Assembly: GCA_005877205.1 (NCBI GenBank) | Contig: VBPL01000036.1 | Location: 1-58,992 of the forward strand | DNA from: Nitrososphaerota archaeon | GTDB taxonomy: Archaea > Thermoproteota > Nitrososphaeria > Nitrososphaerales > Nitrosopumilaceae | Reading direction: 5' to 3' | Length of the DNA: 58,992 nucleotides | In this document: positions 14,396 to 19,621 of the stretch, piece after piece | How positions within the stretch are numbered: position 1 is the stretch's first letter | Layout of the letters: each line of letters begins with the position of its first letter | Notes under the pieces: model-generated | What the model was told of the DNA's origin: nothing | Database searches by the model: none | Seen by the model: the letters and a program-made list of their open reading frames with translations, nothing else | Translations under genes and position numbers: made by a program

Positions 14396-14995
14396 GTGAT
14401 TGTGCAGTGTAATGAGGATGGGATCAAAGTGGCCTTGGCTATAATAAAGAAGGGTGGTGTTGTTGTAATACCTACTGATACTGTGTATGGTATAGGATGT
14501 GACCCTTATAATCATGAAGCGGTCAAAACGGTATACAAGATAAAAGGCAGGGAAAAAACAAAACAACTTCCAGTTCTTGGCTATTCCAAAAAAGATATCG
14601 CGAAGATTGCTTTTTTTGATAAACTATCAGAAAAAATAGCAAACGAGTTCTGGCCAGGACCCGTGACACTGATTCTACAAGTAAAAGAAGAGCAAATTAG
14701 AAATTCTTTAAATCTCGAAAGTAAAATTGCGGTACGAGTTCCCAATCATCCCTGCGCATTATCAGTTCTTAAGGAATGTAAGTTACTCGTCGGGACTAGT
14801 GCAAATCTTTCTGGTCTTCCTCCTTTCAACGATTCAAAACTAATACGTGATAAATTTTCAGGCTACGATGTGCTTCTTGACGCCGGAAAGATTTCTGATC
14901 CCGGCGAATCTACCGTTGTTGAAGTTGCTGGCAACCAATTGAAGATAATACGAGAAGGCAAAGTAAAAGAGAAGGAATTAGCGACTGTAGTTTGA
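14396..14995 (+). CDS. sua5: Threonylcarbamoyl-AMP synthase (Sua5/TsaC)
   Basis: This enzyme makes threonylcarbamoyl-AMP, the donor for t6A37 on ANN-decoding tRNAs. The YrdC fold is clear: GGVVVIPTDTVYGIGCD near the N-terminus, KIKGREKTKQLPVLG, EFWPGPVTLIL, and the SANLSG motif (GTSANLSGLPP). The 199 residues are the YrdC domain only, lacking the Sua5 C-terminal domain. Start is GTG 14396; a TATA-like TTTTTATAAC lies about 14351-14360. It is coupled to the THUMP gene by TTGA overlap and lies close to the Cgi121 fusion gene of the same pathway. Confidence 0.92.
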   Translation: MIVQCNEDGIKVALAIIKKGGVVVIPTDTVYGIGCDPYNHEAVKTVYKIKGREKTKQLPVLGYSKKDIAKIAFFDKLSEKIANEFWPGPVTLILQVKEEQIRNSLNLESKIAVRVPNHPCALSVLKECKLLVGTSANLSGLPPFNDSKLIRDKFSGYDVLLDAGKISDPGESTVVEVAGNQLKIIREGKVKEKELATVV

Positions 14996-15513
14996 ATCTA
15001 ATCATAACATGCAGCAGACACCTTGAGGAAGAGGCTTCTAATGAGATCTCGAAAATTCTAGCCGATTTTGAGGATGTTGTCCCTAGGGTGGAGATCACAC
15101 CTTTTTCTGGAATTATTACTGTGATTACCATACTAGATCCTTTTATGATCGTCAGAGAAATTAAAAAGAAAATTATTGACGAGCCTTGGAGTATTAGATA
15201 TTGTCATAGATTCATACCAATTCAAGAAACCACAGAAACCGATACAGAGAACATAGTAAGATCTGTACAAAACCATACAAAAATGATGAAACGGACAGAT
15301 ACTTATAGAATAACTATCGAGAAGAGAGGCTCAGCGTTGTCATCAAAAGAGGTAATAGATTCCATTGCCAAGAGTATTCAAAACAAGGTATCATTAGAGA
15401 AATTCGATTGGAATGTAATTGTTCAGATTCTTGGGAAAACTGCTGGCACATCTGTGCTCAGAGAGAGTGACATAGTGAGCACTCTAAAGCTGAAACGTGA
15501 TTCAATGGAGTAA
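14992..15513 (+). CDS. THUMP-domain protein (Tan1-like)
   Basis: The protein has 173 residues. The N-terminal part (LIITCSRHLEEEASNEISKIL) and the C-terminal THUMP segment (TYRITIEKRGSALSSKEVIDSI ... NVIVQILGKTAGTSVL, given here in pieces) match the Tan1/THUMPD1 group, RNA-binding partners for N4-acetylcytidine formation in tRNA. No methyltransferase or thiouridine synthase domain is attached. The TTG start overlaps the sua5 stop (TTGA), so translation is coupled. The 3' end overlaps the Cgi121 fusion gene by 12 nt. Confidence 0.82.
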   Translation: MNLIITCSRHLEEEASNEISKILADFEDVVPRVEITPFSGIITVITILDPFMIVREIKKKIIDEPWSIRYCHRFIPIQETTETDTENIVRSVQNHTKMMKRTDTYRITIEKRGSALSSKEVIDSIAKSIQNKVSLEKFDWNVIVQILGKTAGTSVLRESDIVSTLKLKRDSME

Positions 15514-16278
15514 AATAGCTGATCTTTCTGTCAGTATATCCTCAAGTGGAGTCTTTGATATTATACAACCAAGTTCCCTCCTAGTTATTGCAAATTCTTT
15601 TTGGATGAATTTTGAGTTATTCTCAAAAGTCCAATTACTTCTCAGCATGTGCTTTATTTCTCTGAAAAGTTCATCGGCAGATGATCTTTTTCCGACTACT
15701 ACAAGAATAGAATCCATGCCTTTTCGTAGGCCTCCTTTAGCAATAGCAATACTAATCTGCCTTGTACATGTGAATCTCATTAGAATATCAATTTCCATTC
15801 TATTGGAAAGTAGTAGACAGGCCCTTTGAGCAGCAAACGATACACTCAGAACCCTCTTTGCGTGTTCAAGATTAAGTACATAATCAGCCTGAATACCTTG
15901 AATTATGAGATCAGTATATTTCTCACGTAATATTTCAAGAAATCTAATTGGATCGTCTGCCATTTTTTTCAGTCGCATCAGTTCTGCGCTCATGTTAATA
16001 ATGGTGAACCGCTTTCTATTCATACTTCCTCCATGTACTAGTGGAATTATGGTTACCATATCTCCATCCTTAAGATTAGTATTCCGACCTTGCAAGGCTG
16101 AAGAATCTATACCATTTACTACAACAAGAATATTTTTTACATCAAGGGATAGCGGATTCTTAACAGTCTTCTGAAGATAATTTAGCAGGTTGGATACTGA
16201 CATGGAGTTTTCTTCCACGACCAGTTTATCACGTAAAAATAATTTTCTAGCGCCTCCAAGAAATCTGACTGTTATCAT
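15502..16278 (-). CDS. MoaD/ThiS-like domain fused to KEOPS subunit Cgi121
   Basis: This is a two-domain protein of 258 residues. Residues 1-84 form a beta-grasp ubiquitin-like domain of MoaD/ThiS type: VRFLGGARKLF, ILVVVNGIDSSAL, LKDGDMVTIIPLVHGG. Residues from about 105 onward match Cgi121, the KEOPS subunit that binds tRNA during t6A synthesis, with ADYVLNLEHAKRVLSVSF, LLLSNRMEIDILMRFTCTRQ and SIAIAKGGL. The Gly-Gly at residues 83-84 is where a free MoaD or SAMP would end, but here the chain continues. It converges on sua5 and the THUMP gene, so t6A factors cluster here. Confidence 0.82.
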   Translation of the reverse strand: MITVRFLGGARKLFLRDKLVVEENSMSVSNLLNYLQKTVKNPLSLDVKNILVVVNGIDSSALQGRNTNLKDGDMVTIIPLVHGGSMNRKRFTIINMSAELMRLKKMADDPIRFLEILREKYTDLIIQGIQADYVLNLEHAKRVLSVSFAAQRACLLLSNRMEIDILMRFTCTRQISIAIAKGGLRKGMDSILVVVGKRSSADELFREIKHMLRSNWTFENNSKFIQKEFAITRRELGCIISKTPLEDILTERSAILLH

Positions 16279-16331: not shown

Positions 16332-16592
16332 TTAGTTTAGTATCTGTTCTTCTATTTCTTCGGCTTCACGAATAGATTCTGTGTGAGCTGCAGATTCTGA
16401 TTCCTTTTCTTTCTGTTCCTCAAGCTCTCTTCGCAGGTAAGAAGTTATGAAGCCTGCTATTTCGTTTTTGAGCCCTTTGGACCTGATTATTGCTATTTCG
16501 TCTAGTGCTTTCTTGTTTTCTTGAAAATCAGTGCCAAATTTTACTCTATAAGAAGATAATAGCTCTGTGGAAATTCGCCTGATTCTATTCAC
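16332..16592 (-). CDS. rps17e: Ribosomal protein S17e
   Basis: This small-subunit protein is specific to archaea and eukaryotes. The first 60 residues show the family pattern IRRISTELLSSYRVKFGTDF, then NKKALDEIAIIRSKGLKNEIAGFITSYLRR. The 86-residue chain carries an acidic Glu-rich tail (about residues 60-86) that is longer than the minimal archaeal version. It lies 53 nt upstream of the Cgi121 fusion gene and 30 nt downstream of tatD, all on the minus strand. Confidence 0.9.
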   Translation of the reverse strand: MNRIRRISTELLSSYRVKFGTDFQENKKALDEIAIIRSKGLKNEIAGFITSYLRRELEEQKEKESESAAHTESIREAEEIEEQILN

Positions 16593-16622: not shown

Positions 16623-17378
16623 CTATACTCCCAGATACGAATTTGAGTTGTTTTCCAAAATACCTAGCATTTCATCATAGGATCTATGGAGTACGTGAGA
16701 TACACAAAAGAGAACGCTAGGAAGAAAAGTTATCTGTGTTGTTTTGGATCCAAAACATTTCGAAAATCTCACTGGTCCGTCAGTTTCAAGCAAGATTTTG
16801 TTAAGATCTGTCTGAGTTAGAAGAATCTGCTTATCATGAGAATAAATCATTGCGGGTCCATAAGAAACAAAGCATTCCAAGTCCATGGCTTTATCTAGTT
16901 GCTTTTTGCTACCTGCGAACCAATGCAGTAGAATTCCTTTCAGAGAATACGATGAAAGGGTAGAAAATATTTCATCAAGCGTTTTCCTAGAGTGTATGGA
17001 CACAGGTTTACCTAATTTCTCAGCTAGCGAAAGCATTTTATGGAAAACAAAAAGTTGTCTATGGAAACCAGCATCATCCAAGGCATATATCTTATCAAGT
17101 CCGATTTCACCTAATCCAGAGATTCGTTTCGAGTTGTTTTCTATTAATTCTGTCATTGATTCTAAATCTTCATTAGCCTTCTCGGGATGAAGACCGACGA
17201 AAGATTGAACCAAACGACTTCTTTTGCTTAATTCAAGTGTTAACAATGAACTTGCATAGTCTACTGAGACACAGCATGCTCTTATTTTCATCTTGTCCAT
17301 ACCTGTCAGTATATACTGCATATCTGATTCGAATTCAGGATCAGTCAAATGAATGTGGGCATCAGTAAGCCAATTCAT
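16623..17378 (-). CDS. tatD: TatD-family metal-dependent hydrolase
   Basis: This TIM-barrel metallohydrolase has 251 residues. The metal ligands are visible as TDAHIHL (HxH) at the N-terminus, GEIGLD for the Glu, SIHSRKT, ILLHWFAGS, and the terminal LLETDGPVRF for the Asp. Family members act as 3'-5' exonucleases or DNases in vitro. The gene is upstream of rps17e on the same strand. The physiological substrate is unknown. Confidence 0.87.
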   Translation of the reverse strand: MNWLTDAHIHLTDPEFESDMQYILTGMDKMKIRACCVSVDYASSLLTLELSKRSRLVQSFVGLHPEKANEDLESMTELIENNSKRISGLGEIGLDKIYALDDAGFHRQLFVFHKMLSLAEKLGKPVSIHSRKTLDEIFSTLSSYSLKGILLHWFAGSKKQLDKAMDLECFVSYGPAMIYSHDKQILLTQTDLNKILLETDGPVRFSKCFGSKTTQITFLPSVLFCVSHVLHRSYDEMLGILENNSNSYLGV

Positions 17379-17475: not shown

Positions 17476-17697
17476 ATGACAGCGTCCGAATTTGGCCTCT
17501 CCGTGATGTATAGAATTTTGAAAAAGGCAGGAGCCGAACGAGTTAGCGATGAATCTGCTATCGAGTTGAGAAGGATATTGGAAGAAATTGGCGGTTCAAT
17601 TGCAAAAAGCGCCGTGGAAATGTCTGTGCATGCAGGAAGGAAAACGATCAGGGAGGAAGATGTCAGACTGGCTTCAAAGCAGTTTGCAAAGTTCTGA
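17476..17697 (+). CDS. Archaeal histone
   Basis: This 73-residue protein is a single histone fold: helix 1 VMYRILKKAGAERVS, the long helix 2 ESAIELRRILEEIGGSIAKS, and helix 3 TIREEDVRLASKQF. It is expected to form dimers and larger assemblies that wrap DNA. A TATA-like CCTTAAAATTA immediately precedes the ATG. The gene stands alone, followed 41 nt later by tRNA-Cys. Confidence 0.93.
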   Translation: MTASEFGLSVMYRILKKAGAERVSDESAIELRRILEEIGGSIAKSAVEMSVHAGRKTIREEDVRLASKQFAKF

Positions 17698-17866: not shown

Positions 17867-19621
17867 TTGGTTGAAAGAAGTAATGGATTGTTAGAATACA
17901 TACCAGGCGCTCGATCTCTTTCTCTACAAAATACTAATGGACAACCCCTTGAAGGATTTGCCCAAAATATCAGAGATAGTATTAAAGAATATGCAGAGAG
18001 TAGTCAGAATGAAATCGAGAAAGGTCATAACTTTTTGCAATGGGTGTTGACACGAGTGTTTGAGGCAACTGAAGATGATGCTACTGATGCAATAATTGAT
18101 GGACCTAATGATCTTGGAATTGATGCTTATCTACCAGTAGACTTTTCCGAGGATAAAATCTATCTTTTTCAATCAAAGTATGGTAGTTCTCATTCTATTG
18201 AAGCAATAACAAAATTCAAAGAAGATGTCAAGAGGCTTCAAAATAAAGATATTTCGAAAATGCGTCCAGAACTTGCTCATTTGGTCACTCAAATTCGGGA
18301 GAAGAATCTGAAAATCGAGTGTGTATATGTGACCGACCAGAAAGTGGACAACGATAACTATGATTCTATTGAAATCTATGATATAGGAATAATCATACAA
18401 AAACTCTGGGATCGAATCAAGAAACCAGCTGCTGGCAAGAAGGCATCGATTAGGCTTGAATGTAAACTTAGATACCAGAATACTTTACTGGGTATTTTAA
18501 AGCTGAGAGAACTGACCAATTTCGTTACCAAGAATAGAGACTATGTTTTTGAATCCAACATCAGACAATGGATGCAATTCAAAACAACGGTAAACAAAGG
18601 TCTACGAGAAACTTTGCAAGAGTTGCCGCACAAGTTCTTCTATTACAATAACGGAATAACAATAGTAGTAAATGATTTTGAGGAATTAGAGGACAATTCC
18701 ATAGCGTTGCATTCACCTCAGATAGTAAATGGCGCTCAGACATCAAACTCAGTATTGGATCATGCGAGGCGTACGCATAATCTAGAAGGCAGTATAACGG
18801 TAACAATCATCAAAGCTGCAGATGAGCTTGACCAAAACAACATAACAAAATACAGAAATTCACAGAATGCAGTAAGAGGAAAAGATCTAGTATCTTTGAT
18901 GGATTTTCACAAATCCATCAAATCTCAGATGGAGAACCTTCGTTATTTTTACGAAATACAGGCAGGTTCATTCGATAGTAAAACAAAATCCCAGCAAAGC
19001 GAGTTTGTGGGAGACCATCTATACAACAAGTATCTACCAGATAATCACAAGAAAGTAATAGTAGCAAAAGACGCAATTCAGGCATTTGTAGCAGGAATAG
19101 AGCAACGTCCTACTGAAGCATATAGTTCACCCGCTCAATTTTTACCGAGGGGAAGTAAGTATGATGAAGTGTTCAATGAGAAGTTGAAAGATGACTATCG
19201 ACTTCTATTATTCCCGTATCTTGTAAAAGAGTATGCAAAGAAGGTATTGAACTATGGTAAGAAAGGCGGTCACAAGACTAAGAGATATGCTACTCTGTTT
19301 TTTGTTGCTGTTTATTTCAAGATCCTTCATGAGAAGATTTTACTTACTAAAGGTGATTTCAAGGAGGATGTCTCAAAATTAGAACCTATATTCAAGAGTA
19401 TTAAATTAAATCAAAGAATCCTAAAGCTCACAGATACAGTAGTGACTAAGTTTCTAGAGGATACGGTAGTAGACGATGAGATGATTGCTGCAAATACTTA
19501 CCATAATTTCTTCTCACATCACGTGTGGCAAGATTCAATGGTCCGGGTTATTGAGAAGAAGATGAAACAAGAAGAAGAAGAGATCAGCGTTATCCAAAGG
19601 GTAGTCCAAGATCTTTTTTAG
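17867..19621 (+). CDS. AIPR-family (abortive infection phage resistance) protein
   Basis: The 584-residue protein has the AIPR domain in its middle: HKFFYYNNGITIVVNDF (about residue 255) and SPQIVNGAQTSNSV (about 283). The N-terminal part shows a nuclease-like pattern, NDLGIDAY (D86) and LFQSKYG (Q102-x-K104), resembling the D...(E/Q)xK motif of PD-(D/E)XK enzymes. Some AIPR relatives are reported in abortive infection against phage; activity here is inferred. The start is TTG 17867, only 56 nt after tRNA-Cys. No methylase or partner gene is adjacent, so it may act alone. Confidence 0.78.
   Translation: MVERSNGLLEYIPGARSLSLQNTNGQPLEGFAQNIRDSIKEYAESSQNEIEKGHNFLQWVLTRVFEATEDDATDAIIDGPNDLGIDAYLPVDFSEDKIYLFQSKYGSSHSIEAITKFKEDVKRLQNKDISKMRPELAHLVTQIREKNLKIECVYVTDQKVDNDNYDSIEIYDIGIIIQKLWDRIKKPAAGKKASIRLECKLRYQNTLLGILKLRELTNFVTKNRDYVFESNIRQWMQFKTTVNKGLRETLQELPHKFFYYNNGITIVVNDFEELEDNSIALHSPQIVNGAQTSNSVLDHARRTHNLEGSITVTIIKAADELDQNNITKYRNSQNAVRGKDLVSLMDFHKSIKSQMENLRYFYEIQAGSFDSKTKSQQSEFVGDHLYNKYLPDNHKKVIVAKDAIQAFVAGIEQRPTEAYSSPAQFLPRGSKYDEVFNEKLKDDYRLLLFPYLVKEYAKKVLNYGKKGGHKTKRYATLFFVAVYFKILHEKILLTKGDFKEDVSKLEPIFKSIKLNQRILKLTDTVVTKFLEDTVVDDEMIAANTYHNFFSHHVWQDSMVRVIEKKMKQEEEEISVIQRVVQDLF

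Follow-up and report, generated by a model that had tools for sequence, protein, structure and literature searches.

A Urm1-like domain fused to the KEOPS subunit Cgi121 in Nitrosopumilaceae, a candidate cleavable precursor

Background

An open reading frame in a contig of a Nitrososphaerota archaeon joins a ubiquitin-like (Ubl) domain to the KEOPS subunit Cgi121. It raises the question of whether the product is cut between the two domains or whether KEOPS carries the Ubl domain as a permanent arm. The window, i.e., the whole stretch of DNA that was analysed, is 58,992 nt in length (positions 1–58,992 of contig VBPL01000036.1, assembly GCA_005877205.1, Nitrosopumilaceae).

The fusion itself has been known since 2010. 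In the part of their paper that treats it, Makarova and Koonin (PMC2948915) report that every thaumarchaeal genome sequenced by that time encodes Cgi121 with a fused Ubl, describe the gene as apparently cotranscribed with S17 in N. maritimus, and suggest SAMPylation or coordinated control of KEOPS. The gene in the window has the same domain order, with an N-terminal Ubl and Cgi121 in one frame, belongs to the same lineage, the Thaumarchaea, and adjoins the gene for S17e; it is a member of the published fusion family. The 2010 paper predates most genomes compared here, and its treatment of the fusion does not discuss the conservation of the His-Gly-Gly (HGG) motif, split neighbours that end in HGG, or cutting of a precursor. 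Later open-access literature on the Ubl-Cgi121 fusion was searched for and none was found, which is not proof of absence. The main text of a study of Urm1 substrates in Saccharolobus (PMC12625751) does not contain KEOPS, Kae1 or S17. What appears to be new here is the comparative support for a cleavable precursor.

The cut-or-uncut question has stood since the fusion was noted, and either outcome decides it. Components for two widespread tRNA modifications, 2-thiouridine and t6A, are combined in a single gene of an archaeal lineage that is very abundant, and its product offers a native substrate with which archaeal JAMM proteases can be tested. If the protein is cut, it parallels the production of eukaryotic ubiquitin from ribosomal protein fusions; if it is not, the permanent Ubl arm would make this KEOPS a new form of the complex.

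Results

Domain architecture

The fusion gene is at positions 15502–16278 (minus strand). It has 258 codons, starts with ATG, has no internal stop and encodes 258 aa. The first domain, residues 1–84 (positions 16027–16278, minus strand), matches Pfam ThiS at residues 4–84 (35.8 bits, cut-off 22.5) and Pfam Urm1 at residues 2–84 (28.1 bits, cut-off 21.8). The Cgi121 domain comprises residues 98–258 and the stop codon (positions 15502–15987, minus strand). It matches NCBIfam NF011465, KEOPS subunit Cgi121, at residues 108–257 (98 bits, cut-off 40); the Pfam CGI-121 match is under its cut-off (15.7 vs 25). A profile built from 15 relatives finds Urm1 structures of Trypanosoma, Sulfolobus and yeast (including 2k9x and 4wwm) among the best matches of the first half, and the Cgi121 structures PF0523, TPRKB and MJ0187 with the second.

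An AlphaFold model of the fusion, made with 31 sequences in the alignment, has a mean pLDDT of 90 and a pTM of 0.68, a value that leaves the mutual placement of the two domains unsure. In Foldseek searches with this model the best matches are solved KEOPS Cgi121 chains (E about 5e-7), and MoaD, Urm1 and SAMP1 are weaker (E 0.003 and above). The second half has both the sequence family and the fold of Cgi121, and the first half has the beta-grasp fold of Urm1/ThiS-type carriers. A preliminary description had proposed a complete MoaD-type beta-grasp domain ending in Gly-Gly and joined in frame to Cgi121. Domain searches on both halves uphold the fusion and the complete beta-grasp domain with its terminal HGG. 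The term MoaD-type fits less well; the HGG terminus, the Urm1 profile matches and the result for MoaE suggest that the domain is better named Urm1-like. MoaE was searched for in the same genome and not found, so a molybdopterin role of the Ubl is unlikely.

Gene neighbourhood and distribution

The genes for ribosomal protein S17e (positions 16332–16592, minus strand) and a TatD-type nuclease (16623–17378, minus strand), both identified by Pfam, are upstream of the fusion gene and co-directional with it. S17e is a probable operon partner, 53 bp upstream. On the opposite strand, convergent with the fusion gene, are a THUMP-domain protein (14992–15513, plus strand; Pfam), whose gene overlaps the 3' end of the fusion gene by 12 bp, and Sua5/YrdC (14396–14995, plus strand; TIGR00057 over cut-off), which makes threonylcarbamoyl-AMP for t6A. 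S17e is on the same strand and no more than 300 bp upstream in 76 of 77 fused loci. In the 48 fused loci that are flanked by 4 kb in both directions, the relative strands of S17e, TatD and THUMP are always the same, and so is that of Sua5 in all 45 where it was found. The tRNA-modification neighbourhood that had been pointed out from sua5 and THUMP, TatD - S17e - fusion with convergent THUMP - Sua5, is real and conserved.

Uninterrupted full-length homologues of the fusion are present across the genus (45–66% identity; the nearest, at 66%, is on a MAG contig) and almost throughout Nitrosopumilaceae. Fusions also occur in a Nitrososphaeraceae-like group.

Elsewhere in the window, an AIPR-domain protein of 584 aa (17867–19621, plus strand; Pfam E 6.7e-56) adjoins an archaeal histone gene (17476–17697). 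The AIPR family is named for abortive infection phage resistance.

The Gly-Gly junction

The junction motif, His82-Gly83-Gly84 (positions 16027–16035, minus strand), is kept in 83 of 84 distinct fused proteins in the alignment. Site rates were computed over the 83 proteins that keep HGG (mean pairwise identity 51%), with the exception, L024, left out. The mean rate of HGG is 0.054, the third slowest of 256 residue triplets, versus 1.46 for residues 85–97 (positions 15988–16026, minus strand), which comprise the junction and the first strand of the Cgi121 half; residues right after HGG evolve faster than average. Residues 82–85 are the only segment with a pLDDT under 50 and are predicted to be disordered, so packing does not explain the conservation of HGG. 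In the present reading frame the motif is internal, and it would be terminal only if the chain were cut.

In other families of the order, Ubl and Cgi121 are usually neighbouring genes on the same strand and are not fused. The separate Ubls of these families end in HGG-stop or in HGG plus one to five residues (S, ML, CL, GTAF, MVGV, NNNEL, SPKPA).

The Nitrosopumilaceae fusions form one clade (support 100/99). A single fusion event shared with the Nitrososphaeraceae-like fusions, i.e., one clade for both, was rejected by the AU test (p 0.0019), for a grouping picked with the junctions already in view. The fusion thus appears to have arisen at least twice independently, with HGG kept in both cases.

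A further Gly-Gly junction fusion comes from the same Ubl family. In genome G034 (L029:1504–1830, plus strand) an HGG-type Ubl is in frame with a different domain of ~190 residues, and cgi121 follows as a separate gene. By eye, the partner domain looks like a phosphoribosyltransferase.

The exceptional protein is from a small genome of family f15 (G038; loci L024/L200). It retains both domains but has HCS in place of HGG, which is a counterpoint to cleavage, and its Ubl may be a genuine permanent arm. A search for E1 in this genome, which is 82% complete, found none; a search of a second genome, G040, also found no E1, yet HGG is kept there.

Other Ubl genes and processing enzymes

In the genome that contains the window (99.5% complete) the ThiS model has two matches over cut-off, both in fusions, one to Cgi121 and one to an E1. 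A free ThiS-type Ubl was not found in this genome with the ThiS model, which would miss one that is too diverged. The second match is the N-terminus of a 438-aa E1 (L130:1192–2508, minus strand, contig C65), where the Ubl ends in Ala-Gly-Gly followed by Ser. The arrangement and its AGG are kept in eight E1 loci among those examined, with variable linkers after AGG. If the E1-linked Ubl works in place, the conservation of an internal Gly-Gly may have another cause than cleavage.

Across 110 near-complete genomes of the order, almost every listed ThiS match from Nitrosopumilaceae is a frame of fusion size (about 258–320 or 438–498 aa), and the matches listed include free ThiS frames of 83–143 aa in several other families. 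Among the short Nitrosopumilaceae frames listed, two are fusions that a stop or frameshift interrupts, and one further frame has 92 aa.

Enzymes that could process and use a released Ubl are encoded in the same genome. Prok-JAB (JAMM) proteins are present in 110/110 of the near-complete genomes surveyed. Two are encoded in the genome of the window, both with the HSHP...S..D motif, and one resembles desampylase. The conserved Gly-Gly at a flexible junction coincides with a protease of the right class for a MoaX-like precursor. A UbaA/ThiF-like E1 is present together with a NcsA/TtuA-like thiolase, which scores over TIGR00269 and Pfam ATP_bind_3 and below the NCBIfam equivalog cut-offs. The KEOPS partner Bud32 is also encoded (TIGR03724, 216.8 bits).

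Discussion

The proposed model is that the gene product is a two-part precursor, which a JAMM/desampylase-type metalloprotease would cut behind His82-Gly83-Gly84. We place the probability of this reading at about 0.68. The cut would free an 84-residue Urm1/SAMP-like carrier, whose C-terminal glycine would be adenylated by the UbaA/ThiF-type E1 of the genome and then thiocarboxylated. The thiocarboxylated carrier would be the sulfur donor for the NcsA/TtuA-type tRNA 2-thiolase, and perhaps would also be conjugated to proteins. The same cut would free an ordinary Cgi121, which would join Bud32, Kae1 and Pcc1 and, within KEOPS, would hold the tRNA CCA end for t6A synthesis.

Cleavage after HGG is favoured because the motif is invariant yet disordered, because split Ubls end at or near HGG, and because at least two fusions both keep it. 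It is also favoured because no free ThiS-type Ubl was found while two JAMM proteins, E1, NcsA/TtuA and Bud32 are present. The preliminary description had left cleavage and a permanent arm side by side, and the comparative evidence points to cleavage. It had also hinted at a link between sulfur-carrier or SAMP chemistry and t6A synthesis. That link holds only as genetic linkage. The chemistry of t6A uses no sulfur, and for this reason no direct transfer of sulfur to t6A is proposed; the natural acceptor would be the NcsA/TtuA-type 2-thiolase, whose gene lies in another part of the genome.

A broader and more tentative proposal is that every Ubl of the ThiS/Urm1 kind in Nitrosopumilaceae is first made as part of a larger protein, either Cgi121 or E1. 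Supply of both the carrier and KEOPS would then depend on one proteolytic step, and a JAMM protease would control s2U and t6A in tRNA together. If true, this would be an archaeal counterpart of the ubiquitin-ribosomal-protein precursors.

The strongest alternative, though an unlikely one, is that the fusion is never cut and that the Ubl stays attached to Cgi121, where it would serve KEOPS in interactions or regulation. Cgi121 binds tRNA by its CCA end (PMC7718258), so a fixed arm could reach the tRNA, and the fused relative L024 keeps both domains without a Gly-Gly. However, a permanent arm would leave unexplained why HGG is invariant at a junction that is predicted to be disordered. Adenylation of Gly84 is also impossible in the uncut chain, and the search of the genome found no free ThiS-type Ubl that could feed the E1 and NcsA/TtuA instead.

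It is less probable still that the Ubl serves as a built-in, removable inhibitor, such that the fusion does not support t6A synthesis until the JAMM cut switches KEOPS on. SAMP1 joined to MoaE does inhibit MoaE (PMC4443979), the treatment of the fusion by Makarova and Koonin (PMC2948915) suggests regulation of KEOPS by SAMPylation, and synteny with Sua5 is conserved. However, inhibition would not call for a domain of the Urm1 kind whose tail is suited to an E1, and most families of the order produce the two proteins from separate genes. Such regulation would be compatible with the cleavable precursor.

Free Cgi121 could also be made besides the fusion if translation started internally at Met86 and the two glycine codons, GGAGGA, acted as a Shine-Dalgarno sequence. 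These codons and the next two read GGAGGAAGTATG (positions 16021–16032, minus strand), i.e., a good Shine-Dalgarno and an ATG exactly at the domain junction. An in-frame start with a Shine-Dalgarno-like motif near the junction is found in only 6 of 84 fused genes, however; codon choice for the two glycines is unconstrained, and relatives lack Met86. The arrangement is specific to this genome, and as a general mechanism the internal start is very improbable, since it is not conserved.

A few relatives do have frame breaks in the Ubl (L020/L074, Candidatus Nitrosotalea sp. TS) or just after HGG (L022, genome G020), which may be sequencing errors or real splits, but a frameshift or assembly artefact joining two genes, the possibility raised against the fusion at the outset, is refuted by 84 distinct uninterrupted homologues in many assemblies, including single-contig genomes.

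Comparison with known systems

In eukaryotes, ubiquitin is made as a fusion to ribosomal proteins, housekeeping partners from which the modifier is released after Gly-Gly. The present fusion has a different partner and a different Ubl family, and the resemblance is one of analogy only. The Ubl half also resembles Urm1, SAMP2 and TtuB, with which it shares the beta-grasp fold, an HGG that is terminal in those proteins, and E1 and NcsA/TtuA partners in its own genome. Those proteins are made free, as carriers for tRNA 2-thiolation, whereas the present carrier is joined to Cgi121.

MoaX of M. tuberculosis, a fused MoaD-MoaE, must be cut between Gly82 and Ser83 for activity (PMC4326299). There, too, a Ubl of the sulfur-carrier kind is joined at its Gly-Gly to a partner enzyme, but MoaE is the sulfur acceptor for molybdopterin, whereas the partner here belongs to KEOPS and makes no use of sulfur. 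In archaea, HvJAMM1 cuts a linear SAMP1-MoaE fusion in a Gly-Gly-dependent manner (PMC4443979), and CsJAMM of Caldiarchaeum cuts its own SAMP precursors (PMC6043591). The Haloferax fusion was engineered, and the Caldiarchaeum substrates are SAMP precursors and not Cgi121 fusions. In both systems an archaeal Ubl is freed after Gly-Gly by a JAMM protease, as would be the case here, where the genome encodes two JAMM proteins.
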